Under the pieces are notes generated by a model. The model was not told the origin of the DNA, ran no database searches, and was given only the letters and a program-made list of their open reading frames with translations. Positions 5,445 to 58,436 of a stretch of 64,000 bases of DNA are shown here, in pieces. The translations under genes and the position numbers were made by a program. The DNA is taken from contig NZ_QGMP01000001.1 of assembly GCF_003259185.1 (NCBI RefSeq), forward strand, positions 186,001 to 250,000, written 5' to 3'. Each line of letters begins with the position of its first letter. Position 1 is the stretch's first letter. Origin of the DNA: Isoalcanivorax indicus (lineage in GTDB: Bacteria; Pseudomonadota; Gammaproteobacteria; Pseudomonadales; Alcanivoracaceae).

Positions 5445-5479
5445 GTGGGTCTTCCGTCTGTTCCATACGGCCTGTTCTA

Positions 5480-5495
5480 TACCGTCTGGTTGGTA
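5480..5495 (-). promoter_or_regulatory. Candidate TetR operator
   Basis: An imperfect 16-bp dyad (TACCAACCAGACGGTA on the minus strand, 5 of 8 arm positions matching) between the promoter and the TetR start codon. The position and type suit an autoregulatory operator; inference only. Confidence 0.35.
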
Positions 5496-5511
5496 CAGTA
5501 AATGAGGCGCC

Positions 5512-5539
5512 ATTATATCGCCGGGTTTCGGGGCGACAA
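5512..5539 (-). promoter_or_regulatory. Sigma70 promoter of the TetR-MFP-RND operon
   Basis: On the minus strand TTGTCG, a 16-base spacer, and a perfect TATAAT lie about 70-95 bases before the TetR start codon. Confidence 0.5.
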
Positions 5540-5549
5540 GGGGGTGGCC

Positions 5550-6584: not shown

Positions 6585-6832
6585 CAGGAGTGGTCCTGAT
6601 GCTCCAGTGCCGCCACCTGACGCTCCAGGGCCTCCAGCTTTTCGCGGGTGCGCGCCAGAACCTGCTGCTGGATATCAAACTCCTCGCGGCTGACCAGATC
6701 CAGCCGACCGATGGCCTCGCGCAGGACGGCCTGCACATTGCGCTCGACCTCCTCGCGGAATTCGCCGAGACCGGCGGGCAGCCGCCGGCTGATATCCGCC
6801 ACCAGACGATCAATCAGGGGGACGTCATTCAT
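6584..6832 (-). CDS. ubiK: Ubiquinone biosynthesis accessory factor UbiK (BMFP/YqiC)
   Basis: An 82-residue protein of the BMFP family. It has an N-terminal amphipathic segment (PLIDRLVADISRRLPAGLGEFREEVERNV), the LVSREEFDIQQQVLARTREKLEALERQVAALE coiled coil at the C-terminus, and the usual length. In Enterobacteria UbiK binds UbiJ and helps ubiquinone synthesis under aerobic conditions. It is transcribed away from glnK and followed by the ankyrin gene with a one-base overlap. Confidence 0.88.
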   Translation of the reverse strand: MNDVPLIDRLVADISRRLPAGLGEFREEVERNVQAVLREAIGRLDLVSREEFDIQQQVLARTREKLEALERQVAALEHQDHS

Positions 6833-6891
6833 GCTTAAAGCCTGTTATCGTGGGGCCGCCATGGTAACACGGTGTGCGTCGCTCCGGCGCG

Positions 6892-6925
6892 TGCACCAAA
6901 TTGGGGAGTGCACCAAACCCGTGCG
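6892..6925 (+). promoter_or_regulatory. Two abutting NtrC-type binding sites upstream of glnK-amtB
   Basis: Two 17-bp sites lie end to end: 6892-6908 and 6909-6925. Both begin TGCACCAAA and match the NtrC consensus TGCACYAWWWTGGTGCA at about 14 and 13 of 17 positions. They lie about 110-130 bases before the start point expected from the sigma54-type element at 7003, a normal enhancer distance. Confidence 0.65.
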
Positions 6926-7002
6926 CTATAATGGCCCCCGCTGCGCAGGGGCAACCCTGTGTATCGCGTTTAACCCTCTGAATTTGCAAGCGATTTCAAA
7001 AT

Positions 7003-7018
7003 AGGCATGGATCGTGCA
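7003..7018 (+). promoter_or_regulatory. Sigma54-type -24/-12 promoter of glnK-amtB
   Basis: AGGCATGGATCGTGCA has the invariant GG and GC spaced by 10 and matches 9 of 12 defined positions of TGGCACR-N4-TTGCW. A weak IHF-like stretch (6971-6983) lies between it and the NtrC sites. The transcript would have a leader of about 180 bases. Confidence 0.55.
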
Positions 7019-7029
7019 ATCAAGCAGGG

Positions 7030-7545
<516 letters not shown>

Positions 7546-7611
7546 AACACCGTCAACCAACGATCCATGCCTAATTTAGTTGACTGACGCTTCCATTCGG
7601 AGGGTTGCACC

Positions 7612-8853
7612 GTGGAATACCAAATCTCAGAGCTGCAGTTTGCGCTCGATACTTTCTACTTCCTGATATGCGGCGCGCTGGTAATGTGGATGGCCGCCGG
7701 GTTTGCCATGCTCGAAGCCGGTCTGGTGCGTGCCAAGAACACCACCGAGATCCTGACCAAGAACGTGGCCCTGTTCGCCATCGCCTGCACCATGTATCTG
7801 GTGTGCGGTTACGCGATCATGTACGAAGGCGGCTTCTTCCTGTCCGGCATCATGGACAAGGGCGTAGAAGAAGGCTTCGCTTACGTGGCTGAAGAAACCT
7901 ACGCACCGTCTGCCGACTTCTTCTTCCAGGTCGTGTTCGTGGCCACCGCCATGTCCATCGTCTCGGGTGCGGTTGCCGAGCGTATGAAGCTGTGGGCCTT
8001 CCTGGCCTTCGCCGTGGTCATGACCGGTTTCATCTACCCGATGTCCGGTGCCTGGACCTGGGGCGGTGCGCCGGTGTTCGGTCTGTATGACCTGGATGCG
8101 CTGGGCTTCGCTGACTTCGCAGGCTCCGGCATCGTGCACATGGCAGGTGCTGCTGCAGCGCTGGCCGGTGTCATCCTGCTGGGTGCCCGTAAAGGCAAAT
8201 ACGGCCCGAACGGTCAGGTGAACGCCATTCCGGGTGCCAACCTGCCGCTGGCGACTCTGGGGACCTTCATCCTGTGGATGGGCTGGTTCGGCTTCAACGG
8301 TGGCTCCGTACTGGCTACCGCTTCGGCTGACGCGGCCAACGATGTCGCCATCGTGTTCATGAACACCAACGCGGCTGCGGCCGGTGGTGCGCTGGGCGCT
8401 CTGGTGCTGGCACGCATCCTGTTCGGCAAGGCTGATCTGACCATGCTGCTCAACGGTGCGCTGGCTGGCCTGGTGACCATCACGGCTGGCCCGGATACCC
8501 CGAGCCCGCTGCTGGCCACCCTCTTCGGCGCGCTGGGCGGTCTGCTGGTGGTCATGTCCATCCTGACCCTGGACAAGCTGAAGATCGACGATCCGGTCGG
8601 TGCCATCTCCGTACACGGCACCTGCGGTATCCTGGGTCTGATGCTGGTACCGGTCACTGGCGACGCCAGCTTCTCCGGCCAGATCATCGGCGGCCTGACG
8701 ATCTTTGTCTGGGTATTCGTCACCAGCCTGATCGTGTGGGGCATCCTCAAGGCCGTCATGGGCATCCGTGTCGCCGAGGAAGACGAGTACGCCGGTATGG
8801 ACCTTGCCGACTGCGGTATGGAAGCCTACCCGGAATTCGTCAAAGGCAACTGA
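7612..8853 (+). CDS. amtB: Ammonium channel AmtB
   Basis: A 413-residue Amt/Rh-type ammonium transporter with about 11 membrane segments. Family motifs include DTFYFLICGALVMWMAAGFAMLEAGLVR, DFAGSGIVHMAGAAAALAG (pore histidine) and SVHGTCGILGLMLVP (second pore histidine). It starts with GTG behind GGAGGG. It follows glnK by 66 bases in the same unit and is closed by a strong terminator. AmtB brings ammonium into the cell at low external levels. Confidence 0.97.
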   Translation: MEYQISELQFALDTFYFLICGALVMWMAAGFAMLEAGLVRAKNTTEILTKNVALFAIACTMYLVCGYAIMYEGGFFLSGIMDKGVEEGFAYVAEETYAPSADFFFQVVFVATAMSIVSGAVAERMKLWAFLAFAVVMTGFIYPMSGAWTWGGAPVFGLYDLDALGFADFAGSGIVHMAGAAAALAGVILLGARKGKYGPNGQVNAIPGANLPLATLGTFILWMGWFGFNGGSVLATASADAANDVAIVFMNTNAAAAGGALGALVLARILFGKADLTMLLNGALAGLVTITAGPDTPSPLLATLFGALGGLLVVMSILTLDKLKIDDPVGAISVHGTCGILGLMLVPVTGDASFSGQIIGGLTIFVWVFVTSLIVWGILKAVMGIRVAEEDEYAGMDLADCGMEAYPEFVKGN

Positions 8854-43664: not shown

Positions 43665-44970
43665 AGGGCACGTCGTCAAAGTGTTGCAGATGGCCGGCCA
43701 GCACGATGCCTGCCAGTCGGCGGAGATGCCGCACATCCTGCATCGGATCGGCGCCCAGCAGCAAGAAGTCGGCCCATTTTCCGGGGGCCAGTGTACCGAG
43801 GTGCTCGCCGACACCGGTGCAGTCGGCGGCATCACGGGTGGCGGCGATCAGCACTTCCAGTGGTGTCATGCCCGCGTCCTGCATCATCGCCATTTCCATG
43901 TGCTCGAAGTAACCCTGAAAGCGCGCCGGGGGGCCGCTGTCGGTGCCCATGGCCACGCGCACACCCGCTTCGTGCAAGGTCAACATGTTGGCCTTGGCCA
44001 GTGGCAGCGCGGCGCGGTAATAGTCGGCGGCCCGGCCGGTGAAGCGTGCCTGCATGTCTGGTGCCTGCAGCGCATCCAGCACGTCGGGGTCGGCGGCTTT
44101 CAGGAAGAAGGGGTCGTCAAAGAAATCCGGGCGCTCGGCGTACACAAACACCGACACCTCCCGGGTCAGTGTCGGGGTGATGCAGATGTCACGCTCGCGC
44201 ATCAATTCAATCAGTTCGTTGTCCACCGGCGCATCGCGCACGCTGTGCGCAATCAGATGCGTGCCGGCGCGCAGCAGTCCCTTGGCGTCCTCCAGCGTGA
44301 CCATGTGCGAAGCCAGTGGCCGGCCGAATTCGTTGCTGGCATCAATCACGGCGCCATACACATCGGGCGGCATCTTGTCTGCCGTGCCCAGGTGATCGTC
44401 CACGCGGATCTTGATCCAGTCCGGGTTCATGCGCATCAGTGCCTCGACCTTGCCGCGCGCGCTGGCCGCATCCGGCGGATGCAGCACGTCGCCAGCCAGG
44501 AACAGGCGCGCCATGCGTGGATCAGCGGCATTCTGCTCGTCGCGTGCCTCGAACGCCTGGGGCGGCTCGTCGCCCAGGCTGATCACCGTGGTGATGCCGT
44601 AGCGGGCATACAACTGCAACTGCGCTTCCACATTGGCGCGGCTGTGGATGGCCGGGCCGGTGTCCAGTCCGCGCGCCATGCCGACATGCCCGTGCGCATT
44701 GATCAGTCCGGGGATCAGGTAATGGCCGCTGACATCCTGCACCTTGACGTCATGGGGCAGGTCGCCGCGATGCACGGCCAGCACCTTGCCATCCCGGACG
44801 ATCAGCGCGGCGTCTTCCAGGTAGCCTTCATCTTCACCGGTCCAGATGCGCGCCCCGGTCCAGGCGGTGGCGCCCGCAAACGGCGATGGCGCCGGGTTGC
44901 CGCAACCGACCAGCAGCAGGGCCATGCACAGCAGCGGCAGGCAACGACGGGTACCAGGGGGCAGAATCAT
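43645..44970 (-). CDS. Amidohydrolase-family lipoprotein
   Basis: A 441-residue amidohydrolase with a lipoprotein signal (CMALLLVGC, Cys23). Metal-site motifs are LIPGLINAHGHVG (HxH), LIAHSV and MGTDSGPPARFQG, and the end GTLAPGKWADFLLLGADP is typical of imidazolonepropionase/dipeptidase-like members. An envelope-attached hydrolase of unknown substrate. AAGGA precedes the ATG. Followed by the ChaC gene with overlap. Confidence 0.82.
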   Translation of the reverse strand: MILPPGTRRCLPLLCMALLLVGCGNPAPSPFAGATAWTGARIWTGEDEGYLEDAALIVRDGKVLAVHRGDLPHDVKVQDVSGHYLIPGLINAHGHVGMARGLDTGPAIHSRANVEAQLQLYARYGITTVISLGDEPPQAFEARDEQNAADPRMARLFLAGDVLHPPDAASARGKVEALMRMNPDWIKIRVDDHLGTADKMPPDVYGAVIDASNEFGRPLASHMVTLEDAKGLLRAGTHLIAHSVRDAPVDNELIELMRERDICITPTLTREVSVFVYAERPDFFDDPFFLKAADPDVLDALQAPDMQARFTGRAADYYRAALPLAKANMLTLHEAGVRVAMGTDSGPPARFQGYFEHMEMAMMQDAGMTPLEVLIAATRDAADCTGVGEHLGTLAPGKWADFLLLGADPMQDVRHLRRLAGIVLAGHLQHFDDVPYAAEHR

Positions 44971-45091
44971 GACAGTGTCCTTTGCAAACAAATGCCTCAC
45001 GAGTTTTTACACTAGCCGGGCGGGAGGGGGCGGGCAAATCCGATATCATCGACACCAATGTGGTGATACTGACAAAGCGAGTAAGGCGAGC

Positions 45092-45613
45092 ATGCAGAAA
45101 ACGCTGATTCTGGGCGGTATACGCAGCGGCAAGAGTGGCCGTGCCGAGGCGCTGGCCCGCGCCCATGCGCAGGTGGTGTATGTGGCCACGGCCACCGCAG
45201 GCGACGAGGAAATGGCAGCTCGTATTGATCGGCATCGGGCCCGGCGTCCGGCGCACTGGCGCCTGGTGGAGGCGCCGCTGGCATTGGGTGCCGTGTTGCG
45301 CGAGGCCGCTGCGGCGCCCACGCCCCCCTGCCTGCTGGTGGACTGCATGAGCCTGTGGGTCAGCAACCTGTTGCATGCGGGCGAGGCCACCTTCGGGCGT
45401 GAGCGCGATGCATTCTTGCAGGCCCTGGTGGCGTACCCGGCCGATGTGGTGATTGTCAGCAACGAGACCGGCCTGGGTACCATCGGCATGGACCCGCTGA
45501 CCCGTCGCTTCTGTGATGAGCTGGGATGGCTGAATCAGGCGCTGGCGGCGCGCTGCCAGCGCGTGGAGCTGGTGATGGCCGGGCTGTCGATGCCGCTCAA
45601 GGCGCCCCTCTGA
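45092..45613 (+). CDS. cobU: Adenosylcobinamide kinase / cobinamide-phosphate guanylyltransferase
   Basis: A 173-residue CobU/CobP. P-loop GGIRSGKSGRAEALA, VVYVATATAGDEEMAARIDRHRARRPAHWRLVEAP, LLVDCMSLWVSNLL, VSNETGLGTIGMDPLTRRFCDELGWLNQ. It phosphorylates adenosylcobinamide and adds GMP, the entry to nucleotide-loop assembly. Convergent with cobS, which uses its product. No riboswitch is seen upstream. Confidence 0.94.
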   Translation: MQKTLILGGIRSGKSGRAEALARAHAQVVYVATATAGDEEMAARIDRHRARRPAHWRLVEAPLALGAVLREAAAAPTPPCLLVDCMSLWVSNLLHAGEATFGRERDAFLQALVAYPADVVIVSNETGLGTIGMDPLTRRFCDELGWLNQALAARCQRVELVMAGLSMPLKAPL

Positions 45614-45632: not shown

Positions 45633-46391
45633 TCAACTGCGGCCCAGCCACAGTGCCGCGCCCAGCAACACCAGTGTTTCTGTTATTTCCACCAGCGCAC
45701 CTGCGGTGTCGCCGGTAAAGCCCCCCAGGCGCTGCTGCATCTGCTGGCGCGCCAGCAGGAACGCCAGCAGGGCGATCCCCAGCATCAGCGCGCCGACCCC
45801 GCCGCCCACCGCCACAGTACCCAGCAGTGCCACGGCAATGGCCAGGCCAACCCGTTTGCGTGGCAGCGTTTCTGCGGCGTCGTGCCCCAGACCGCCAGCA
45901 CGCACGTAGGGCAGACTCAGGAAGAGCGCCGCGCAGGCGCTGCGCCCGAGTAGCGGCGCCAGCAGCAGTGGCAACAGGGCGGTCGCGGTGCCGAGCGCCA
46001 GCAATGTCGCCAGCGCCGCGCCGCGCCCCAGCAACACCAGCAGCAGCGCGCATACCCCCGCCGGACCGCAGGCCGGGTCCTTCATGATGCGCAGCGTGCG
46101 GGCGCGGTCGCCTTGTCCGCCAAGCCACGCGTCCGCGCTGTCCGCCAGGCCATCCAGATGCAATGCGCCAGTCAGCACGACCTGCAGGGTGAGCAGGGCG
46201 ATGGCCGTGGGCCAGACGGGCAAGCCGTTGTGCACGGCCAGCCCGGCGAGGGCCATCAGTAACCCTCCCAGCAAGGCGCCCACCAGCGGATACGCCGACA
46301 CCGCGCGACCGTGGTCTGCGGCGGTCACCGGAGTGGCCAGGCGCACGGGAATGCGGGTCAGCAGAGCCAGGGCCAGACGCAGCGATTGCAT
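45633..46391 (-). CDS. cobS: Adenosylcobinamide-GDP ribazoletransferase (cobalamin synthase)
   Basis: A 252-residue integral membrane protein with about six helices. Motifs: LTRIPV, HLDGLADSADAWLGGQGDRARTLRIMKDPACGPAG. It joins adenosylcobinamide-GDP and alpha-ribazole (or its phosphate) at the membrane. Overlaps cobC by one base. Confidence 0.94.
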   Translation of the reverse strand: MQSLRLALALLTRIPVRLATPVTAADHGRAVSAYPLVGALLGGLLMALAGLAVHNGLPVWPTAIALLTLQVVLTGALHLDGLADSADAWLGGQGDRARTLRIMKDPACGPAGVCALLLVLLGRGAALATLLALGTATALLPLLLAPLLGRSACAALFLSLPYVRAGGLGHDAAETLPRKRVGLAIAVALLGTVAVGGGVGALMLGIALLAFLLARQQMQQRLGGFTGDTAGALVEITETLVLLGAALWLGRS

Positions 46392-47207: not shown

Positions 47208-48314
47208 ATGTTGAACAATAATCACAATACGGCGCCTCCGGGGTTGCCCTTTGATGTGCTGGACACGACGGCGCTTCCTGCTGAAGAGGGCTATGCCCTC
47301 TGGCGTGAGAGCCTGTCGCCGCTGTTTCATGCTCGCGCGGCCGACGAGACGGCCGACGCCTTCAACGCGCGCATCGACACCTGTGATCTGCAGCAATTGA
47401 TGCTGGCCGAAAGCCTGTTTCCTGCGAGCCATTATGAGCGAGGCCTGCGTCACCGTATGGACGACGGCGCCGAGCCGTTGCTGGTGCAGTTGTACATGAC
47501 GGGCGGGTATCGGGGGCACTCGGGCCATCGCGAGATGATCGTGCAGCCTGGCGATATCGGGCTGCTGGATATGGCCGATCCGATGACGACGCGCGCGGAG
47601 GCTTCCCGTGTGCTGTCGCTGGTTATTCCGCGGGAGCAGGTGCGGCGGGCTGGTGCGTTGCCGCGCGCGACCGTGCTGCGTGCCGGGTCGCCGCTGGCCG
47701 AGATTCTCGGTTGCCATCTGCTGACGGTGTGGCGGCAACTGGCGCTGGCGGGGCCGGAGGTGCTGCCCGCCATCAATGAAACACTCGTGGCCACGACCGT
47801 GGCGGCGTTTCGGGGTCTGCATCAGGACCGGGACCAGGCCATGGGGGCTCTGCCTGAGCAGGCCCGGCTGGATGCGGTGTGCGCGTATATCCTGCAGTGC
47901 CTGGGTCAGGATGACCTGACGCCGGAGCACTTGTGTCGGCGTTTCGGTTTTTCGCGGGCGGGCCTGTATCGACTGTTTGCGCCGCTGGGCGGCGTGGCCG
48001 GGTTCATCCGTGATGCGCGCCTGCGGCGTTGCTACGAAGAACTGGCGCATGCGGGCGCGCAGGGGCGTCCGAAGCGTGTCATCGACGTTGCCGTGCGCTG
48101 GGGCTTTACCAGCCAGAGTCATTTTACCCGGCTGTTCCGCCGGACCTTTGATGTGTTGCCGGGGGATCTTCTGGCGGCCCGCGATGCCGTGCCGGTGACG
48201 GCGGTGGGTGCAGATGACAGTGCGCAGGCGGCGTATCCGGTGTTGCGCCAATGGCTGGACAGGATGTGCCGGGACAGCGCAGCCACCGAGGTCCTGAGAC
48301 AAACAGACCAGTAA
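47208..48314 (+). CDS. AraC-family transcriptional regulator
   Basis: A 368-residue protein. The N-terminal part resembles the AraC_binding_2 type (QLYMTGGYRGHSGHREMIVQPGDIGLLDMADPMTTRA). The C-terminal helix-turn-helix is LTPEHLCRRFGFSRAGLYRLFAPLGG ... VIDVAVRWGFTSQSHFTRLFRRTFDVLPGDL. It diverges from cobC, but control of cobalamin genes is not shown; it may act elsewhere. The region before it (47050-47130) is G-rich and repetitive (GGTGAGG, GGTCAGG). Confidence 0.85.
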   Translation: MLNNNHNTAPPGLPFDVLDTTALPAEEGYALWRESLSPLFHARAADETADAFNARIDTCDLQQLMLAESLFPASHYERGLRHRMDDGAEPLLVQLYMTGGYRGHSGHREMIVQPGDIGLLDMADPMTTRAEASRVLSLVIPREQVRRAGALPRATVLRAGSPLAEILGCHLLTVWRQLALAGPEVLPAINETLVATTVAAFRGLHQDRDQAMGALPEQARLDAVCAYILQCLGQDDLTPEHLCRRFGFSRAGLYRLFAPLGGVAGFIRDARLRRCYEELAHAGAQGRPKRVIDVAVRWGFTSQSHFTRLFRRTFDVLPGDLLAARDAVPVTAVGADDSAQAAYPVLRQWLDRMCRDSAATEVLRQTDQ

Positions 48315-48700: not shown

Positions 48701-48738
48701 GCCGGCATGCATGACCTGTGCATGCCGGCTTTTTTTTA
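48701..48738 (+). terminator. Strong Rho-independent terminator
   Basis: A perfect 11-bp stem GCCGGCATGCA / TGCATGCCGGC with a 7-base loop and eight Ts. It serves the small plus-strand ORF; the cobT stop codon on the other strand lies within the T-run. Confidence 0.85.
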
Positions 48739-49770
48739 CCCGGGCGGCTGATCCACCCCCGCCTGATCAAAGCTGGCCATCTCGTTATGCAGCGCGCAGG
48801 CGGCGCGCATCAGCGGCACGGCCACGGCCGCGCCGCTGCCTTCTCCCAGCCGCATACCCAGATCCAGCAACGGTTCGGCGTGCAGTGCGGTCAGCACATG
48901 CGTGTGTCCGGGTTCGCCCGAACGGTGTGCGAAATGCAGCCAGTCGCGCAGCGCCGGGTCATGGCGCACCGCCGCCAGTGCGGCGACGGAAACGATAAAA
49001 CCATCCACCAGCACCGGCAGGCGTCGCGCCGCGCAGCCGAGCAAGGCGCCCGCCAGGGCAGCGATTTCGAAACCGCCCAGGGACGCGAGCGCGACCAGAG
49101 GTTGCCGGGCCTGCGCGCCGTGGGTGTTGGCATGGCGCTGCAAGGCGCGCTCGATCACCCGCGTCTTGTGCGCCACTCCGTGTGTGTCGAGCCCGGTGCC
49201 CGGGCCGACCAGCCGGGTCGCTGGCGCATCGAGCAACGCGCAGGCCAGCGCGCTGGCGCTGGTGGTATTGCCGATGCCCATTTCACCGCCAATGAACAAC
49301 TCGGCGCCGGCTTCGGCAGCGCGCGCTGCGACCGCATCACCCGCGGCCAGTGCCTGATCCCGTTGTGCCGGCGTCATGGCGTCGGTCCGTGCCAGATTCG
49401 CAGTGCCGGGGCCGACCCGCACATCCTGCGCAGCGGGGTGCAGGGCGCCGAGCGTGCCGGTATCGATGATCTCGAAGGTGGCGCCGAGCTGCCGCGCCAG
49501 CACACTGATCGCGGCACCGCCCCCGGCAAAGTTGGCGATCATCTGCGCGGTAACGGCCTGCGGGAAGGCAGAAACACCTTCCTCACATACACCATGATCG
49601 CCGGCAAACAGCGCGATATGCACCCGTTCAACGGAAGGCTGCTCGCGACCCTGTTGAGCCGCAAGCGTGATCGCCAGTTGCTCAAGCCGACCGAGGGAGC
49701 CGGCCGGTTTGGTCAGGCGCGCCTGGCGCGCTCGGGCGTGCTCTGCAAAGGTGGCGTCCGGTGCCGTCAC
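48736..49770 (-). CDS. cobT: Nicotinate-nucleotide-dimethylbenzimidazole phosphoribosyltransferase
   Basis: A 344-residue CobT making alpha-ribazole phosphate from the lower-ligand base and nicotinate mononucleotide. Motifs: [75 protein letters not shown] and the Glu of [12 protein letters not shown]. It starts with GTG overlapping the lipoprotein stop by 4 bases (GTGA), so it is the third gene of the riboswitch-controlled btuB unit. Confidence 0.95.
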
Positions 49771-51017
49771 GGCGTGACCTCGTCGTCGCTGTCCTCGTCG
49801 ATGCCCGGTGCCTGCATGAAGCTGACGCCAATCGGATTGCCGGAGGTGTTGATGCGGCGCAGCGTCGTATCGGCATCAGGATCCATGACGTAAAGACCGG
49901 GCGCCAGAATATCATCGCGGTTGTTGTCGACGATGAGGCCGAGGCCGACCCAGAGCTGCTGTTGGGGGCTGACGGCGAGGCTGGTGACATGTTGTGCCTC
50001 AATGTTCGCCACCACATCACCGACAGTGCCGGAAACCGGGTTGAAGCGGCGCAGGGTATTGTTCATCCAGCCGCCGTAGGTCACCAGGAAGCCGGTCTCT
50101 GCGTCTATCAGGGCAACACCGGAAATAGCGCCGAGTTCAGCACTGCCTTCGACCAGGCGGGTGGCCTCGTAGGTGTCGGCGTCAATGCGATCAATGCCAC
50201 TGAGATCATTGCTGCCATAATTGCCGATACTCTGCACCAGCAGACCGATATCGGGATGATGGGTGATGTGTTCCGGATTGCGGGTAAACAGCGGAATGCC
50301 CGGCAGGCCTTCTTCGCCGTGTCCGGTAACGATTTCTTCATCGGTGTTGATATCGAAGACGGCGACATAGCTGGTGTTGGCGGGATCGAAGGGGCGCGGG
50401 TTGTCGTCGGCGCCGAAACCGCCCAGGCGCTGCAGCGTGATGAACAGCCTGTCATCGACGATCACTGCGCTGGACATGCGCGGCACATCGAAGCCATCCG
50501 GCGTGTAGTGGGACAGGTCCAGCGAACCGATATGGAAATCGTCCTCATGGGTAGCCGTCGGATCGACGATCCAGGCATGGGTGCTGCCGTAGCGCAGCAA
50601 GTAGGCTTTGTCATCGCTGGCAAAGATCATCGTGTAAGGATTGCTGGAGGCTTCGTCGCCAGCTTCGAGCGCGCTGTAGCGCCAGGTGAACAGGGCCGGT
50701 TGGTCGATATCCACTTTATTGATGCGATCCGTCTGGAAACGTTCGATCAGGTAATAGTCACGCCCATGGGTGACGACGGAAATATCGGATGCGGTGCTGT
50801 GGTAGGGGCCATAGGCGCGCCCCGGAGCCTGATCCAGATCTATGAGATCAATGCCGCCTGATGAAAAATCCGACGCCGCAGTGGTGACCACCGCAACGTT
50901 GCCGTCGAAGTTGGGGCGGCGATCGCTGCTGCCGGAACTGCCGCCGCAGGCGGCCAGCAGCAGTGTCAGCAAAGGCAACAGGATCAGGCGCGAGAACAAT
51001 GCATATTGATGGCGCAT
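49767..51017 (-). CDS. Predicted beta-propeller lipoprotein between btuB and cobT (BtuG-like candidate)
   Basis: A 416-residue lipoprotein (lipobox TLLLAAC, Cys24, followed by Gly/Ser, so not an inner-membrane retention signal). The rest is a run of about seven similar beta-rich segments of YncE/propeller character: [121 protein letters not shown]. It lies 20 bases after btuB and overlaps cobT by 4 bases, all behind a B12 riboswitch. In Bacteroides the propeller lipoprotein BtuG caps BtuB and captures B12; a similar role here is my inference. Confidence 0.75.
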
Positions 51018-51037: not shown

Positions 51038-53014
51038 TTACAAGGCGATATCCAGTGTCACGAAGGCGGCACGCCCGACACCGGGAAAACGGTTGAAGTC
51101 CTGATAGCGGCGGTCGCTGATATTGCGTACCTCCAGATCCAGCCGCAGGCGTGATGTGTGTTGCCAGCGTGGCAGCCAGCCGAGTCGTGCATCCATCAGC
51201 ACACGGCTGTCGGCGCGCAAGGCGTTGACCGAGTCGTAATAGAGTTCGTCGTCGTAGCGGCCCAGCCAGGTCAGTTCGAAAGCGCCGATCTGCCAGTGGC
51301 TGCCAACACGGGCGCTACGGTGATACAGGCCCGGCAGTTTCCGCCCGTCCCGGTCGGCAATATTCGGTGAGCGGCTTTCGGAATCCAGCCAGGTGCCATG
51401 GGCATCCAGAGACCAGCGGCGGGTCACCTCCAGTCGTGCTTCGGCTTCAATGCCGATCAGTCGGCCTTCGCTGTTGATATAGCGTCCCACGCCGCGGGCG
51501 TCATAGATGGTCACGATGGCGGGGGAGAGGTCGCGGTGAAAGCCCGTCAACGCGAGGTGATAACGCGTCTGTGAAAAAGTGAGGCCAAGCTCGGTGTTGA
51601 GGGCTTCTTCAGCTTCCAGGTTCGGGTTGCCGACAAAGGCGCCCTGCTGACCGAATCGTTCCACCAGGGTTGGCAGGCGTGCTTGCCGGGACACGTTGGC
51701 CTGCATGCTCCATGCCTGTGTCAGGGCATAACGACTGCCCAGGTGCCAGCCGTGATACGTGCCGGTGACTCGCTCGCGCGACACGCTGTCGTCAGTGCCC
51801 ACATCATCGGCATCGTCCCGCAGCGCGGTGTGGCGCAGCACGGCCTGGGTCTGCCAGCGTGCGTCATCACTATGCCATTCGTGACTGATGGCACTGGCCA
51901 GCACGCGCCGTTCGCGCTGCCCCGAGCGCTCCGGTTGCAAACGATTGTCCTGACACTGATCGTAGTGCTGCAGATCCAGCGCGACGCTGAAAATATGCCC
52001 GCCTTGCAACCAGCTCAGCGCATTGTGCAGTCCGATCTGGTCGGTATCCGTGGCGACGTCATACGTGCCCGTGCCGACGCGCCCGGTGCGATCGGCGTAA
52101 TGCTCATCGAAGTGCGCCACCAGCAGCCGATGACTGTGATGCAAACGACCGGCAAACGGCTGCTGGCCGCGATATTGCAGTTGTGCGCGCTGCTGGGTGC
52201 GGGTCAGCCGGGCGCGGTTGTTGGCCCAGTTCTGGATGCTGGGAATGCCCTGATCCTTGTCGCTCCATTGCCACAGCAGGTCGATGTGGTCGCCGTTGTC
52301 GCGGGCCAGGTTCAGGCGCGCGCTGGCGTCGTCCTGGCGCACGTCGGCATTGCGCCGCCGCGTGCGTGCCCCGTCGTTGGGGTTGAACCAGTCTGCATGG
52401 TTGTCGAAGGGAAAATCGTTATCCGCCGCCTGATGGTTCAACGACAGCCAGTAGCCCAGCCGGTGTTGCTGGCCCCCGGTAAAAAGCCCGGCCCGGCGCG
52501 TGCCGAAGCTGCCGCCACCCAGCCGCACGCGCAGCCGCTCGGCGTCGGCGGTATCCAGCGATTCCAGGGCGATGGCGCCGCCAATCCCGGCTTGCGGATA
52601 ACGTGCCGGGGCCTGGCCAGCATAAATATGAATGCGCCCGATATCGTGCAGGGAAATTTGCGTGGCATCGAAACCGCCATAGAGCGGATCGTTGAGCAGC
52701 ATGCCGTCCAGAAACACCGGCAACTGCCGACCACTGGCGCCGCGCAACGTCAGGGTGCTGGCGCTGCCCAGGCCGCCGCTCTCGCGCAACTGCATGCCGG
52801 GCTGGTCGCGCAGGGTGTCGGCCAGTGTGGTAATGCGATGGGCAAAGGTCTCGCGTTCGATCACGCGCACCGTGCCCGTGCTGCCGACATGATCGTCGGC
52901 CGCGTTCAGGGCGCGGGCATGCACCGGCACCGGCTCCAGCGTGGCCGGTGGCCGGGCCTGCACAGGCCATGCACAGACCACCAGCAGGGCTGGCAGCAGG
53001 CGAAGTGCGCTCAT
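51038..53014 (-). CDS. btuB: TonB-dependent outer-membrane cobalamin receptor
   Basis: A 658-residue TonB-dependent receptor: signal peptide (LLPALLVVCAWPVQA), plug domain (ERETFAHRITTLADTLRDQPGMQLRESGGLGSASTLTLRGASGRQLPVFLDGMLLND ... GGAIALES) and a 22-strand-type barrel ending in RAAFVTLDIAL. The cobalamin riboswitch upstream and cobT downstream identify the substrate as a corrinoid. The ATG at 53014 has GGGGGA before it. A TonB box is not obvious. Confidence 0.93.
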   Translation of the reverse strand: MSALRLLPALLVVCAWPVQARPPATLEPVPVHARALNAADDHVGSTGTVRVIERETFAHRITTLADTLRDQPGMQLRESGGLGSASTLTLRGASGRQLPVFLDGMLLNDPLYGGFDATQISLHDIGRIHIYAGQAPARYPQAGIGGAIALESLDTADAERLRVRLGGGSFGTRRAGLFTGGQQHRLGYWLSLNHQAADNDFPFDNHADWFNPNDGARTRRRNADVRQDDASARLNLARDNGDHIDLLWQWSDKDQGIPSIQNWANNRARLTRTQQRAQLQYRGQQPFAGRLHHSHRLLVAHFDEHYADRTGRVGTGTYDVATDTDQIGLHNALSWLQGGHIFSVALDLQHYDQCQDNRLQPERSGQRERRVLASAISHEWHSDDARWQTQAVLRHTALRDDADDVGTDDSVSRERVTGTYHGWHLGSRYALTQAWSMQANVSRQARLPTLVERFGQQGAFVGNPNLEAEEALNTELGLTFSQTRYHLALTGFHRDLSPAIVTIYDARGVGRYINSEGRLIGIEAEARLEVTRRWSLDAHGTWLDSESRSPNIADRDGRKLPGLYHRSARVGSHWQIGAFELTWLGRYDDELYYDSVNALRADSRVLMDARLGWLPRWQHTSRLRLDLEVRNISDRRYQDFNRFPGVGRAAFVTLDIAL

Positions 53015-53137
53015 GATCATCCCCCGTGCGGGCACAGGCGTGCCCCACAGTCTGCGGTGTTGGTTCTGGCAGCTATCAGGGGGGTGGAACGAAGAAACCC
53101 CACGCAACAGCCCACCGCAGTTGCGTCGATAGCCGGT
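53015..53137 (-). other. btuB leader after the riboswitch aptamer
   Basis: A non-coding stretch linking the aptamer to btuB. A GC-rich hairpin (GGGCAC / GTGCCC, near 53028-53045) sits next to the GGGGGA ribosome binding site and could control its access. No T-run terminator is seen, so translational control is more likely than termination; inference. Confidence 0.4.
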
Positions 53138-53335
53138 GGCAGGCCGGTATCCGGGCTCTCGGTCGAAGGGGGTTCCGGTTGAGGAAACGCCTTCGGCATG
53201 ACGCCTTCCCGCGCGTTGCGCAGTGGCTGGCGTGATCAAACGCCGGTCATGCCTGTCACCGATCACCGTTGCGGGGGCAGCGCTGGTCTTGGATCAGAGA
53301 TCCGCACCAGACTTCCCGTTTAACGTCCTCGCGGA
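53138..53335 (-). ncRNA. Cobalamin riboswitch controlling btuB
   Basis: On the minus strand the conserved blocks appear in order: GGGAAGTCTGGTG, GCTGCCCCCGCAACGGTGAT, the B12 box GCCACTG followed by CGCAACGCGCGGGAAGGCG, and closing GAGCCCGGATACCGGCC. Binding of adenosylcobalamin would turn down btuB, the lipoprotein and cobT. Confidence 0.93.
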
Positions 53336-53481
53336 CGCACCTGCCACGGTCGTGAAATCTCCGCGCATCCTAGACCGGCGCGAAGAAAAGTCAACCGGAT
53401 GGCATCGCGCAGACTGGTCAGCGGCAGGCACGTCACGCACACTGTCGCTCCGTTTTCTGATGGCCCCTGCCGCCCCGAGAC

Positions 53482-54411
53482 ATGTCTGACGTGATGCCCG
53501 TACTGGTGTCCCTGCCGCTTGTGATGGTCAGTGCGCTGCTCCTGGATGCGCTCCTGGGTGAGCCGCGCCGCTGGCATCCGCTGGTCGGCTTCGGGCGCCT
53601 GGCCGCTGCGCTGGAGGCGCGTTTCAATCGCGCCCCCGGCTCGGTGTTTGCCGGTATGTTCGCGGCAGGCCTGCTGGTGTTGCCCCCCGTCGTGCTGGTG
53701 TTCTGGCTGAGTCGATGGCTGGACGGCCTGATGCTGTTCGTGTTGCAGGTACTGGGGCTGTGGTGGGCACTGGGCTGGCGCAGCCTGGCCGAACATGCCC
53801 GGGCGGTGGCGCTGCCACTGGCGGCGAGCGACCTGCCGCAAGCACGACACCAGGTGGCGCGTCTGGTCAGCCGCGACACGGCGCAACTGGATGCAGAAGG
53901 TGTGGCCGCTGCGGCGACGGAATCGGTACTGGAAAATGGCGCCGATGCCGTCTTTGCCAGCCTGTTCTGGTTTGCGCTGGCCGGGTTGCCGGGCGTGGTG
54001 TTGCATCGCCTGGTGAATACGCTGGATGCCATGTGGGGCTATCGCACGCCGCGCTTTCTTTACTTCGGCCGCGCGGCGGCGCGGCTGGACGACCTGCTGG
54101 GCTGGGTGCCCGCACGTCTGGTGGCACTGACCTATGCACTGGTGGGGCATGGCCGGGGCGCGCTGCGCTGCTGGCGGCGTCAGGCCTCGCAGTGGGACAG
54201 CCCTAATGCCGGGCCGGTGATGGCGGCGGGCGCCGGTGCCTTGCAGATCCGGCTGGGCGGCCCGGCGCCTTACCATGGCGGTTGGCGCCGACGGCCCGTG
54301 CTGGGCGAAGGCGAGACGGCGTCGGCGGATTCGATTTCGGCCGCGCTGCGTTTGCTGCGGCGGGGCGTCGCGGTTTGGGTGATTGTGATGATGGGAATCG
54401 CTGCCACATGA
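53482..54411 (+). CDS. cbiB: Adenosylcobinamide-phosphate synthase
   Basis: A 309-residue membrane protein of the CbiB (also called CobD in Pseudomonas) family: LLLDALLGEPRRWHPLVGFGRL, RHQVARLVSRDTAQLDAEGVAAAATESVLENGADAVFASLFWFALAGLPG and NTLDAMWGYRTPRFLYFGRAAARLDD. It attaches aminopropanol phosphate to cobyric acid. It overlaps the next gene by 4 bases. It lies between the two riboswitches but has none in its own orientation. Confidence 0.93.
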   Translation: MSDVMPVLVSLPLVMVSALLLDALLGEPRRWHPLVGFGRLAAALEARFNRAPGSVFAGMFAAGLLVLPPVVLVFWLSRWLDGLMLFVLQVLGLWWALGWRSLAEHARAVALPLAASDLPQARHQVARLVSRDTAQLDAEGVAAAATESVLENGADAVFASLFWFALAGLPGVVLHRLVNTLDAMWGYRTPRFLYFGRAAARLDDLLGWVPARLVALTYALVGHGRGALRCWRRQASQWDSPNAGPVMAAGAGALQIRLGGPAPYHGGWRRRPVLGEGETASADSISAALRLLRRGVAVWVIVMMGIAAT

Positions 54412-55427
54412 CCGATGACCTTTCCCTTGAACACGGCGGCCGCCTGCACCGCGCGGCCCTGCAATGGAACCGCCCTGCGGGCCAGTGGCTGGACCTGTCC
54501 ACCGGCATCAGCCCCTGGGCGTTTCCCCTGCCGCCTGTGCCGCGCGCAGTCTGGCAGCGCTTGCCGGACCCGGACGACGGTCTGTTGCCGCAGGCGCAGC
54601 GCTGGCTGGGGGCGCCGGACCACAGTGGTTGCGTGCTGGTGCCGGGCACGCAGAGCGCTATCCAGTGCCTGCCCTGGTTGTGGCGCACGCAGTACGGCGT
54701 GGCCCGGGTGGGTGTGCCTGCCGTGGGCTATGCCGAGCACGCCCGCTGCTGGGCGGCGGCGGGGCATCAGGTGCAGCCCCTGCATCCGGGTCAGGTCGAC
54801 ATGGCGCTGCCAACGCTGGACGTGTTGGTCTGGCTGAACCCGAACAATCCCACCGGGGAACTCACGGGCGACGCCGTCTTGCGCCGTTGGCAGGCGTCAC
54901 TGGCGCAGCGCGGAGGCTGGCTGATTCTCGACGAAGCCTTTGTGGAAGCCGCGCCGGTGGCATCGCTGGGGTCGCTGTGCGGCGCACCGGGTTTCTGGGT
55001 GCTGCGCTCCCTGGGCAAGTTCCATGGCCTGGCGGGCGTGCGCGCCGGGGTGGTGGGTGGCCCGGCAGAGGCCTGTGGGCAACTGGCGGAGCAACTGGGT
55101 CCCTGGGCGTTGAGCGGCCCGGCGCGTTTTGCGCTGAATGCAGCCGTTCGTAATTCTGATTGGCCGATTCATCAGGCCCGCAGGCTGGCGACCATGGCCC
55201 GGGCGCTGGATCGTGTCCTGCAAGCCCGGGGGCTGGCACCTCAGGGGGAGTGCGATCTGTTCCGCTACTGTCTCACCACAGCGGCCGGGCCGTTGTTCGA
55301 GGCACTGGCCCGTCAGGGGGTTCTCGTTCGGCTGCTGACGTCGCCGTCCGCACTGCGTATCGGGTTGCCCGCCGACGATGACGGGTTGCTGCGGCTGGAT
55401 CGGGCGCTGGCTCAGGCTATGCGCTGA
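54408..55427 (+). CDS. cobD: L-threonine-O-3-phosphate decarboxylase
   Basis: A 339-residue PLP enzyme of the class I aminotransferase fold: LDLSTGISPWAFP, VWLNPNNPTGELT, LILDEAFVEA, and the PLP lysine in VLRSLGKFHGLAGVRAG. It makes the aminopropanol phosphate used by CbiB. Named cobD after Salmonella; in Pseudomonas nomenclature it is cobC. ATGA overlap with cbiB. Its stop lies about 40 bases before the second riboswitch. Confidence 0.92.
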   Translation: MTDDLSLEHGGRLHRAALQWNRPAGQWLDLSTGISPWAFPLPPVPRAVWQRLPDPDDGLLPQAQRWLGAPDHSGCVLVPGTQSAIQCLPWLWRTQYGVARVGVPAVGYAEHARCWAAAGHQVQPLHPGQVDMALPTLDVLVWLNPNNPTGELTGDAVLRRWQASLAQRGGWLILDEAFVEAAPVASLGSLCGAPGFWVLRSLGKFHGLAGVRAGVVGGPAEACGQLAEQLGPWALSGPARFALNAAVRNSDWPIHQARRLATMARALDRVLQARGLAPQGECDLFRYCLTTAAGPLFEALARQGVLVRLLTSPSALRIGLPADDDGLLRLDRALAQAMR

Positions 55428-55469
55428 GGCTGAAGTTGGCGCTCCGCGGGCGCTGTGCTACTGTCGCCG

Positions 55470-55662
55470 CGCATTCAGGTGTCCCGCAAGGGAGAAACGG
55501 GAAGACCGGTGAGGCCGCAGGCCAAACCCGGCGCTGCCCCCGCAACGGTGATCGGCAACAGGTATGACAGGGCACGCTTCAGGGCCCGGCCACTGCGCAA
55601 CGCGTGGGAAGGCGTCGTACCGGGGATGAAGATTCCTGCCGTCAGCCCGGAGACCGGCCTGA
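55470..55662 (+). ncRNA. Cobalamin riboswitch controlling btuFCD-cobO-cobQ
   Basis: Conserved blocks in order: [43 protein letters not shown]12 box GCCACTGCGCAACGCGTGGGAAGGCG, and AGCCCGGAGACCGGCCT. It is highly similar to the other B12 riboswitch in this window. Two small hairpins follow (55683-55699 and 55717-55732), neither with a T-run. Confidence 0.93.
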
Positions 55663-55805
55663 GTGAGATCGAAAACGCCGGAGATTGCGGTGGGCAATCA
55701 CGGGGCGCCGACAGGCCTGTCCGCCGGACAGCCGTGCCTGCCGTTCCCCGCCTTGATACCCCCGCCGCAATGCCTGATACGCTGCTCTGACCCGGGTGCT
55801 GCGGA

Positions 55806-56708
55806 ATGCCCATGTGTCTGCACTGGATGACAAGGCTGTTGATGACTGGCCTGCTGACCACCGCCTCGCTGGCGTTGGCGGATACGCCTGCGCGCTGTGT
55901 GCTGGATGATGATGGCCATCGGGTGTGTCTGAATCACCCTGCGCAGCGGGTGGTGGCCCTGTCCCCCGGGGCGACCGAGCTGGTCTACGCTGCCGGGGGT
56001 GGCGCCCGTATGGTGGCCGCAGTGAACTACAGTGACTACCCGCCGGAAGCGGCCAGGCTGCCGCAACTGGGCAGTAACCGGCGACTGGATCTGGAAGCCC
56101 TGCTGGCGCTGGACCCGGACCTGATTCTGGTGATGCCGTCCGGTAATCCGCCGGAGCAGGTGGCGACGCTCAGGCGGCTCGGCCGCACGCTGTTTATTTC
56201 CGAACCGCAGACGTTTGAAGAGGTGGCCAGTTCGCTGGAGCGGCTGTCGATCCTGCTGGGCAGTGAATCGGAAGGGCATCAGGCGGCGGCGGATTTCCGC
56301 CAGGGCATCGAGGCATTGCGCCTGCGTTACCGCGATGCCGCCCCGGTGCCGCTGTTCTACCAGGTCTGGGACGAGCCCTTGATGACGGTGAACGACAGCC
56401 ATTTCATTCATCAGGTCATCGATCTGTGTCGAGGCGAGAATATCTTTGCGGCGCTGCCACGGCAGATTCCACGCATCAGTCTTGAGTCGGTGCTGCAACG
56501 CAACCCCGAAGCCATCGTGGCGGGGGGCATGGGCGAAGAAAATGCGGACTGGCTGGATCATTGGCGGGCCTGGCCGGATCTCACGGCGGTGCAGCGCGAC
56601 AATCTGTTCTTTGTGGCGCCCTCGCTGATCCAGCGCCCCACGCCGCGCTTACTGTACGGCGCCCGCGATCTGTGTGCGCATCTGGATACGGCCCGTGCGC
56701 GGCGTTAA
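55806..56708 (+). CDS. btuF: Periplasmic cobalamin-binding protein
   Basis: A 300-residue substrate-binding protein of the BtuF type: signal peptide, then RVVALSPGATELVYAAGGGARMVAAVNYSDYPPEAARLPQLGSNRRLDLEALLALDPDLILV, FYQVWDEPLMTVNDSHFIHQVIDLCRGENIF, and PRISLESVLQRNPEAIVAGG. It hands corrinoid to BtuCD. The exact start is uncertain among three near Mets (55806, 55812, 55827). Confidence 0.92.
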   Translation: MPMCLHWMTRLLMTGLLTTASLALADTPARCVLDDDGHRVCLNHPAQRVVALSPGATELVYAAGGGARMVAAVNYSDYPPEAARLPQLGSNRRLDLEALLALDPDLILVMPSGNPPEQVATLRRLGRTLFISEPQTFEEVASSLERLSILLGSESEGHQAAADFRQGIEALRLRYRDAAPVPLFYQVWDEPLMTVNDSHFIHQVIDLCRGENIFAALPRQIPRISLESVLQRNPEAIVAGGMGEENADWLDHWRAWPDLTAVQRDNLFFVAPSLIQRPTPRLLYGARDLCAHLDTARARR

Positions 56709-57678
56709 TCGAACGATTTTCGTGTTTGCGCTGCTGGTGCTGGCCGCGCTGCTGGCGTTGCTGGGTGCGGTGGCGTTTGGCAGTGAGCCGATTTCCCGCC
56801 AGCAACTGATTGCGGTTTTCGGCGGCGGTGGTGAGCCGCTGCACCGGATTCTGGTGCTGGAGTTGCGTGCTCCTCGTGCGCTGGCAGCGTTTGCTGTGGG
56901 CGGCTTGCTGGCCGTGGCCGGGGCCCTGATGCAGGTGCTGTTGCGCAATCCGTTGGCGGACCCCTATGTGCTGGGTTTGTCGGGTGGCGCGGCGGTGGGG
57001 GCGCTGGGCGCGATGTTCCTGGGGCTGGGTCTGCTGCTGGTGCCGACAGCCGCTTTCGGCGGCGCGCTGATTTCGGCGCTGCTGGTATTCGGTCTGGCGC
57101 ATGGTACCGGCAGCTGGACACCCACCCGTTTGCTGCTCACCGGTGTCGTGGTTGCGGCGGGCTGGGGCGCGCTGATTACCTTGATGCTGGCGTTGAGTCC
57201 GGCGGAGCGTTTGCCGGGCATGCTGTACTGGCTGATGGGCGACCTGAGCTATGCGCGCAGTCCCTGGCCTGCTGTCACGGTGTTGCTGCTCGCCTGCCTG
57301 GTGCTGTTGCCGGCGGGCCGCACGCTGAACGTATTGGCCCGTGGCCCCTTGCAGGCGGCGGCACTCGGCGTCGCGGTACGGCCGGTGGAGTGGGGCATCT
57401 ACGTGCTGGCAAGCCTGCTGACGGCGGTGGCGGTGACCACGGCGGGCAGCATCGGTTTTGTCGGCTTGATCGTGCCGCATATGCTGCGTCTGGTGCTGGG
57501 TAATGATCAGCGCGTGATCCTGCCTGCGGCGGCGCTGGCGGGTGGGGTGTTGCTGACCGTAGCCGATACCGTGGCGCGCACGACGCTGGCGCCGGAGCAG
57601 TTGCCGGTGGGGGTGATTACCGCCTTGTTGGGCGTGCCGACGTTCCTGTTCCTGCTGCACAGGAGTCGCGCTTCATGA
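56695..57678 (+). CDS. btuC: Cobalamin ABC transporter permease
   Basis: About 327 residues with ten predicted helices, of the FecCD/BtuC family: LRAPRALAAFAVGGLLAVAGALMQVLLRNPLADPYVLGLSGGAAVGA, ATGLMGDL-like region GMLYWLMGDLSYA, and GSIGFVGLIVPHMLRLVLGNDQRVILPAAALAGGVLL. The GTG at 56695 (overlapping btuF) is preferred; another in-frame GTG lies 21 bases upstream. Confidence 0.93.
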   Translation: MRGVNRTIFVFALLVLAALLALLGAVAFGSEPISRQQLIAVFGGGGEPLHRILVLELRAPRALAAFAVGGLLAVAGALMQVLLRNPLADPYVLGLSGGAAVGALGAMFLGLGLLLVPTAAFGGALISALLVFGLAHGTGSWTPTRLLLTGVVVAAGWGALITLMLALSPAERLPGMLYWLMGDLSYARSPWPAVTVLLLACLVLLPAGRTLNVLARGPLQAAALGVAVRPVEWGIYVLASLLTAVAVTTAGSIGFVGLIVPHMLRLVLGNDQRVILPAAALAGGVLLTVADTVARTTLAPEQLPVGVITALLGVPTFLFLLHRSRAS

Positions 57679-58436
57679 TGCAGATTGCAGATCTGGTGCT
57701 GGATATTCCCGGCCGTGCCGATGGCCGCGCGCTGACCCTGGAACTGGCCGCCGGGCAGGTATGGGGGGTGCTGGGGCCCAATGGCGTCGGCAAGACCACC
57801 TTGTTGCACACGCTGGCCGGATTGCGCACGCCGCGCTCGGGTGTTGTGTGTCTGGCAGATCAGCCACTGGCCCGTTTGTCACGCCGCAAAGTGGCGCAAC
57901 GGCTGGCGGTGGTATTCCAGGAACGGCAGGACGGGTTTCCGTCCACGGTGATGGAAACCGTGTTGATCGGTCGCCACCCGTTCCTGTCGCCCTGGCAGAT
58001 GGAGGGCGGTGACGATCTGGCCCGGGCGCGGACGGCGCTGGAGCGCCTGGACCTGTGGCCGTTGCGCGACCGCCTGTTGTCCACCTTGTCCGGCGGCGAA
58101 CGTCAGCGCGTGGCGCTGGCCATGGCGCTGACCCAGGCGCCGGAGATCTGGTTGGCGGACGAGCCGACCAATCATCTCGACCTGCATCATCAGGTCAGCG
58201 TGATGCAGATGCTGCGCGCCGAAGCGGATGCCGGTCGCGCGGTCTGCCTGTGCCTGCACGACCTGAATCTGGCGGCGCGCTGGTGCGATCATGTGCTGTT
58301 GCTTTATCCCGACGGCGAAGCCTGCTGGGGCCCGGCCAGCACCATGCTGGTGCCCCACGCGCTGGAAAAACTCTACGGCCAGCCGCTGGCCGTGGCCCAC
58401 ATCGACGGCGCGCCGGTTTTTGTGCCGCGCGTCTGA
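57675..58436 (+). CDS. btuD: Cobalamin ABC transporter ATP-binding protein
   Basis: A 253-residue ABC ATPase: Walker A GPNGVGKTT, Q-loop VFQERQDG, signature LSGGERQRVALA, Walker B IWLADEPTNHLD, and H-loop LCLHDLN. It overlaps btuC by 4 bases and powers corrinoid import. Confidence 0.94.
   Translation: MMQIADLVLDIPGRADGRALTLELAAGQVWGVLGPNGVGKTTLLHTLAGLRTPRSGVVCLADQPLARLSRRKVAQRLAVVFQERQDGFPSTVMETVLIGRHPFLSPWQMEGGDDLARARTALERLDLWPLRDRLLSTLSGGERQRVALAMALTQAPEIWLADEPTNHLDLHHQVSVMQMLRAEADAGRAVCLCLHDLNLAARWCDHVLLLYPDGEACWGPASTMLVPHALEKLYGQPLAVAHIDGAPVFVPRV

Follow-up and report, generated by a model that had tools for sequence, protein, structure and literature searches.

A BtuG-like propeller lipoprotein encoded behind a riboswitch-controlled TonB-dependent receptor in Isoalcanivorax indicus: a proposed cobalamin capture lid

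The closest described relatives of the system considered here are the BtuG1, BtuG2 and BtuG3 proteins of Bacteroides thetaiotaomicron (PF16819, DUF5074; structures 8BMX, 8BMY, 8OKV and 8BLW). In the portions of the literature drawn on here, btuG was found only in Bacteroidetes when 313 human gut strains were searched by BLAST, an exclusivity possibly explained by gut competition, and the lipoprotein export signal was likewise described as exclusive to Bacteroidetes (PMC6143338). We analysed a stretch of 64,000 nt from Isoalcanivorax indicus (GCF_003259185.1, NZ_QGMP01000001.1 positions 186,001-250,000; hereafter the window, in whose numbering coordinates are given), in which a reverse-strand gene at 49767..51017 encodes a 416-residue lipoprotein, identified from its open reading frame, lipobox, predicted fold and hhalign comparisons. 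We conclude that this protein is quite probably a BtuG-like cobalamin capture lipoprotein, that is, an outer-membrane-anchored lid that would hand corrinoids to its receptor. Like BtuG1/2/3, it is a lipoprotein with a predicted propeller fold and distant full-length profile homology, and its gene adjoins that of a TonB-dependent receptor in a cobalamin riboswitch context. It differs from them in an identity of only about 12-15% in the fold matches (best 50 of 1346), in having neither the Bacteroidetes export signal nor a DUF5074 hit, and in being encoded by a member of the Gammaproteobacteria.

The lipoprotein reading frame begins with ATG, and the signal peptide and lipobox LAAC (L21-A-A-C24) occupy 50946..51017 on the reverse strand, as derived from residue 24, bearing out the lipoprotein signal noted in the original prediction; C24 is invariant in the 45-row family alignment. 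In E. coli, an aspartate right after the lipobox cysteine (+2) keeps lipoproteins at the inner membrane. As only 3 of the 45 family members have it there, sorting to the outer membrane is plausible from the sequences. The start codon lies 20 nt beyond the stop codon of a gene for a TonB-dependent receptor with Plug and barrel domains (51038..53020, reverse strand; start chosen by eye), and at its other end the lipoprotein gene shares 4 nt, GTGA, with cobT (48736..49770, reverse strand; over the TIGR03160 cut-off), as had been predicted. The predicted position behind a B12 riboswitch was also confirmed, with a match to RF00174 of 94.4 bits 5' of the receptor gene (53125..53359, reverse strand). 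The claim that the gene lies 20 bases after btuB held for the spacing but not for the receptor, which scored 109.1 bits against TIGR01779 (cut-off 599.7; 102 bits when the start was cut by 33 residues), far too low for a canonical BtuB, whereas E. coli BtuB scored 903.2 bits. The receptor is therefore btuB by context and not by TIGR01779.

The original prediction had further noted propeller-like repeats. By sequence these found no family: in Pfam the window lipoprotein reached no cut-off, with Kelch_6 alone at E 0.026; NCBIfam likewise gave nothing above cut-off (one match at E 0.11), and the best match among PDB sequences was only E 0.19. The predicted fold, in contrast, is a propeller. An AlphaFold2 model made from three aligned sequences had a predicted local distance difference test (pLDDT) of 75.9, a predicted template-modelling score (pTM) of 0.78 and 27 strands, a count of strands and not directly of seven blades. 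When this model was compared with the PDB by Foldseek, for which the best 50 of 1346 matches were listed, ranks 1-16 were all BtuG1/2/3 chains together with 3DSM, identified as BtuG2 in the part of PMC6143338 used here, with E-values from 1.0e-13 to 3.0e-11; template-modelling (TM) values by target were 0.72-0.79 for these chains except the two-domain BtuG1, which had 0.44. XusB (4.8e-9), AztD (5.6e-9) and then others followed. XusB of Bacteroides fragilis, a xenosiderophore-binding protein (9HQE) and a lipoprotein by entry title, is thus the second-best fold class, and differs in its ligand, ferrichrome by the entry title of 9HQK, and in its match of 4.8e-9 versus 1e-13 for BtuG. Since other propellers rank lower, we regard this predicted likeness as the strongest single result for a BtuG-like protein, and structure prediction of the lipoprotein alone thus upheld both the propeller fold and its resemblance to BtuG.

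Profile comparison gave the same direction. When aligned by hhalign with four Bacteroidota BtuG-type proteins taken jointly, the 45-row family gave a probability of 97.8% over 341 columns along the family length, and with the single proteins 79.2% (L172), 77.5% (L173), 27.2% (L174) and 43.6% (L175); the E. coli propellers used as controls gave 9.3% (YncE), 1.5% (PgL), 4.7% (BamB) and 0.2% (TolB). In a search of Pfam with all 45 members, DUF5074 matched 5 of them (E up to 0.1), and its 4e-6 was the lowest E-value reached by any family; Reg_prop matched 6; three of the Bacteroidota BtuG-type proteins were over the DUF5074 cut-off. A search of PDB sequences with the 45-row profile found BtuG chains at E 0.0048-0.013, best around KAYL..WIVNP. 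Of the BtuG2 cavity residues Trp194, Trp272, Tyr316 and Tyr335, named in the consulted part of PMC10404256, all are present at identical numbers, as is C32, in the BtuG-type protein of B. finegoldii (L172), and in our own global alignment (14% identity) Trp194 fell on a column with an aromatic residue in 42 of the 45 homologues. The mature family proteins are acidic, with a median net charge of −33 (−38 for the window protein), which would be weak evidence for a likeness to the acidic binding face of BtuG, as the hosts may have acidic proteomes generally. Judged from these alignments, we consider the family to be a distant homologue of BtuG. Other identities were rejected: a lactonase-type propeller (PF10282 had no match in the window's genome, and PgL gave the 1.5% above), a DUF4465 B12-binding protein (BtuJ; no DUF4465 match at E up to 1), and a recent copy of a Bacteroides gene, since BLASTP of the window lipoprotein against two Bacteroidota BtuG-type proteins gave just E 0.007 and 0.002, and tblastn of a plasmid collection gave no match with it where a BtuG fragment matched 5 records. 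A scan of viral contigs found no relative of the lipoprotein.

The receptors separate in the same way as the lipoprotein occurs. In a tree of 87 rows made by a quick method, 48 lipoprotein-partnered and 39 unpartnered receptors formed the two sides of one branch (Shimodaira-Hasegawa-like approximate likelihood ratio test, SH-aLRT, 99). The best E-value with TIGR01779 was 1.5e-42 in the partnered set and 2.4e-209 in the unpartnered set, the latter being mixed, as its first row had just 166.9 bits, under the 599.7 cut-off. Against the PDB, the partnered-receptor profile placed BtuB1 of B. thetaiotaomicron first (4.2e-60), the "TonB-linked outer membrane receptor" 9gbc second (5.7e-54) and E. coli BtuB third (1e-49), whereas the unpartnered-receptor profile placed E. 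coli BtuB first (2e-140), with BtuB1 at 9.5e-47. E. coli BtuB resembles the window receptor as a TonB-dependent receptor under a cobalamin riboswitch, but groups with the lipoprotein-less receptors; BtuB1 (8BLW chain A), the partner of BtuG1, is the best solved relative of the partnered ones, although it comes from another phylum. In a wider tree, to which four Bacteroidota receptors encoded beside BtuG-type genes (L172-L175) and E. coli BtuB, CirA and PqqU were added and from which seven long-branched rows were omitted, the Bacteroidota receptors grouped with the partnered set and the three E. coli receptors with the unpartnered set (SH-aLRT 94); a thinned tree of 48 rows gave the same grouping with a support of 96.9. 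Distances among lipoproteins and among receptors were correlated (r 0.80, 43 pairs, 0 of 2000 permutations as high), which shows that the two proteins were inherited jointly, in a sense that does not separate joint inheritance from species descent. A structure model of the receptor, again from three sequences, was of low confidence (pLDDT 26.9, pTM 0.16), and no structural reading was taken from it.

The lipoprotein is present in one copy in its own genome and in 8 of 37 related genomes searched, its own included; the named relatives found were two, both Alcanivorax. With a seven-sequence profile (E <= 1e-5), 28 of the 390 genomes searched from the order had a homologue, as did 22 of the 369 from the class, the window's genome being within both counts; the lipoprotein thus has a wide but patchy distribution in the class. 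Fifty stretches from 49 genomes were fetched for comparison of neighbourhoods. In 49 of the 50 loci the gene immediately upstream, in the same orientation, encodes a related receptor; the remaining locus, L109, contains just the 3' end of a gene that is broken between two contigs, and its 5' end (L105) does have the receptor. The receptor stop and the lipoprotein start are −11 to 197 nt apart, and 45 of the 49 gaps are 73 nt or less; some lipoprotein starts are uncertain and that of L095 is certainly misplaced. On this linkage we reject a chance placement of the lipoprotein beside a receptor. A cobalamin riboswitch above the Rfam cut-off was present in 45 of the 50 stretches, so that the co-occurrence in relatives expected by the original prediction was found for both elements. 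Among the stretches lacking one, L073 has a shortened match below cut-off at a contig end, the stretches L093 and L104 stop inside the receptor or some 120 nt short of it, and L109 is the gene fragment. Of the 50 stretches, 22 also contain genes related to btuCDF or to the cob genes of the window. Several loci depart in detail from that of the window. In L088 (G315, reverse strand 5591-8290), two tandem lipoprotein copies (E 8.9e-97 and 2.9e-27) follow one riboswitch-controlled receptor, and in L100 (G611) and L101 (G491) the homologues (514 and 505 aa) have about 100 additional residues, which precede the matched region, and a btuC relative adjoins the lipoprotein gene on the opposite strand. 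In the B. finegoldii locus L172 the BtuG-type gene precedes the receptor gene, whereas in the window the lipoprotein gene follows it; the Persicobacter plasmids L173 and L174 have the receptor before the DUF5074-type gene, which is the gammaproteobacterial order and opposite to that of L172.

A second sample was chosen by the cobalamin riboswitch and not by the lipoprotein. From 115 genomes of the class, 120 places in 83 genomes were obtained and every second place was fetched (60 of 120, one stretch being just 295 bases). A TonB-dependent receptor followed the riboswitch in 45 of the 60 places, corresponding to 44 distinct receptors, since two riboswitches share one gene. The lipoprotein followed 5 of the 44, the window's own and four others, and none was found after the remaining 39, of which L126, L136, L151 and L161 have less than 1 kb beyond the receptor and could have been missed. 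A frame of 120 aa or more with a lipobox came directly after the receptor in the same five and in L129 only, where it looks like a membrane protein. Two stretches of one genome (L123 and L143, G538) carry two tandem cobalamin riboswitches about 370 nt apart before one receptor without the lipoprotein.

Several results weigh against this reading of the lipoprotein and its receptor. C24 is followed by GGSS and not by the Bacteroidetes export signal (MKWD in BtuG2), and no route of export to the surface was identified, the search with PF04575 (Slam) being silent, as were its controls. The E-values of 0.007 and 0.002 do not reach E 1e-10, the threshold for BLAST-level BtuG similarity given in the part of PMC6143338 used here, and thus do not support a strict BtuG; DUF5074 was not among the Pfam matches of the window lipoprotein at E up to 1. 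Because the export signal, BLAST-level similarity and DUF5074 match are all lacking, the protein is filed as BtuG-like and not as BtuG itself. In the PDB profile search two other proteins scored better than BtuG, 4a2l (8.9e-8), a histidine-kinase sensor matched through its repeats, and 9m58 (0.0025). In the alignment at 14% identity, Tyr316 of BtuG2 was replaced by small or polar residues, Trp272 was unaligned and Tyr335 fell in a mostly gapped column; with just one of the four cavity residues matched, the sequence does not establish a binding site. On the receptor side, BtuB3 and BtuB2 scored just below E. coli BtuB with the partnered-receptor profile (3.5e-47 to 1.4e-46), and an approximately unbiased (AU) test on the thinned set of 48 rows did not reject a tree joining both gammaproteobacterial receptor classes (p-AU 0.105). 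The link of the receptor to the BtuB of BtuBG systems is thus favoured by the profile match to BtuB1 and by the best tree, but a joint clade with BtuB1 is not proven at this p-AU; given the trees, it is likely, though unproven, that the partnered class and Bacteroidota BtuB share descent. The weakest and most distant homologue, L110 (G742, 4185-7569; E 7e-11), has no cobalamin riboswitch in its 12.7 kb, 4 kb upstream included, and its receptor best matches the model of the myxochelin receptor MxcH (330.6 bits, cut-off 925), indicating that the tie between the family and B12 is not a strict one; in this pair the same kind of lid may serve a siderophore. Finally, the window's genome has a hit for MetE, so that B12 may be non-essential for the host.

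A protein of this kind, anchored in the outer membrane, could also face the periplasm and act as a chaperone instead of a surface lid, accepting cobalamin from the receptor and handing it over to BtuF. We think this unlikely, although the sequence carries no known surface-export signal and AztD, a periplasmic metallochaperone, is the third fold class matched (best 50 of 1346). E. coli encodes YncE, a propeller that is not known to be a lipoprotein, beside the TonB-dependent receptor PqqU (L185:5964-9369); that receptor is a different one, and yncE and pqqU lie on opposite strands. However, the hhalign value for YncE was 9.3% versus 27-79% for the four BtuG-type proteins; the best BtuG fold match exceeded AztD by nearly five orders of magnitude and the weakest of the 16 BtuG-type matches exceeded it by about two, and the receptor profile scored best with the BtuG-partnered BtuB1. 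The yncE/pqqU pair is also an instance of a receptor-propeller pairing that may be general.

A lid or assembly partner without tight cobalamin binding of its own, serving as a gate of the barrel or as a shield against, for instance, phages or colicins, would account for three of the four BtuG2 cavity residues being unmatched, and near-constant pairing suggests merely that the receptor needs the lipoprotein. This we hold to be improbable, as BtuG proteins themselves bind B12 (PMC6143338 and PMC10404256, in the parts drawn on), the Trp194 position is aromatic in nearly all homologues, and the acidity of the family resembles the BtuG binding face, with the reservation about host proteomes already made. 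There is, to our minds, very little chance that another ligand, for example a siderophore, is what the pair imports and that the riboswitch link is incidental. The window receptor did score slightly more with MxcH (116.5 bits) than with TIGR01779, both far below cut-off, the siderophore-binding XusB followed BtuG in the fold comparison, and the L110 pair lacks the riboswitch; nevertheless, riboswitches stood above cut-off in nine-tenths of the loci, btuCDF or cob relatives were found in 22 of 50 stretches, and the window lipoprotein gene runs into cobT.

There is, then, a good probability that the lipoprotein works like BtuG, and the analogous capture role put forward in the original prediction is supported by the BtuG-like predicted fold and by co-occurrence with receptor and riboswitch; its B12 binding, surface exposure, physical complex with the receptor and hand-over of ligand we infer by analogy. 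We propose that the receptor-lipoprotein pair would be made at low B12, as is known for this riboswitch class, and that the lipoprotein, once exported, would be held in the outer membrane by a lipid anchor at Cys24. If the pair is built like BtuBG (PMC10404256, in the part used here), the propeller would cover the product of the preceding TonB-dependent receptor gene as a lid, capture cobalamin or another corrinoid from the outside on its acidic face, and release it into the receptor barrel for TonB-driven import. BtuFCD would carry the corrinoid inward, where CobT, CobU, CobS and CbiB would finish or remodel it. The window's genome looks like that of a corrinoid salvager, as CbiC, the sole de novo marker tested, had no match in it; with CbiC absent and one hit for MetH present, imported corrinoids would be useful.

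The surrounding genes include these candidate partners. On the forward strand, cbiB (53482..54411; over the TIGR00380 cut-off) is followed by a gene for a cobD-like threonine-phosphate decarboxylase (54330..55427; TIGR01140 273.7 bits, cut-off 290.55; start by eye) and by a second cobalamin riboswitch (55460..55676; RF00174, 85.7 bits) lying 5' of a btuF-like gene for a periplasmic binding protein (55806..56708; Peripla_BP_2 over cut-off, BtuF model 164.7 bits, cut-off 234). Next come a btuC-like permease gene (56674..57678; BtuC models among its best matches, all below cut-off) and a gene for an ATP-binding cassette (ABC) ATPase, btuD by position (57675..58436; none of the 25 of 155 models listed over its own cut-off). 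On the other side lie cobS (45633..46391, reverse strand; NF001278 over cut-off) and cobU (44927..45613, forward strand; NF004469 over cut-off, start by eye). A cobC in the region was, like cobD, btuF and btuC, named from a best match below cut-off. Within the cob region, cobC and cobT have an AraC-type regulator gene (47208-48314) between them, and such a regulator was also present in 2 of the 50 fetched stretches (L063 and L111).

In the open-licence literature, searched by title and the start of the abstract, there was no description of such a protein in Gammaproteobacteria, which agrees, as does the gut survey in the part of PMC6143338 used here, with the statement that a capture protein of this kind was not known for this lineage. 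A broader picture would be that Gammaproteobacteria have two riboswitch-controlled receptor designs, the lone BtuB of the E. coli type and a receptor-propeller-lid pair sharing ancestry with Bacteroidota BtuBG, whose two genes moved or descended together, whose lid reaches the surface by a route new to these bacteria, and of which one lid branch serves non-B12 receptors; we see the chances of this whole picture as even. If the reading of the lipoprotein as a BtuG-like lid is true, it would raise the question of how, lacking the Bacteroidetes signal, such lipoproteins get to the cell surface, it would give a function to a family whose window member has no Pfam or NCBIfam match above cut-off, and the genes taken for btuB in the Gammaproteobacteria would fall into at least two receptor types. 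Surface capture of B12 would then be a wider strategy than that of the Bacteroidetes.
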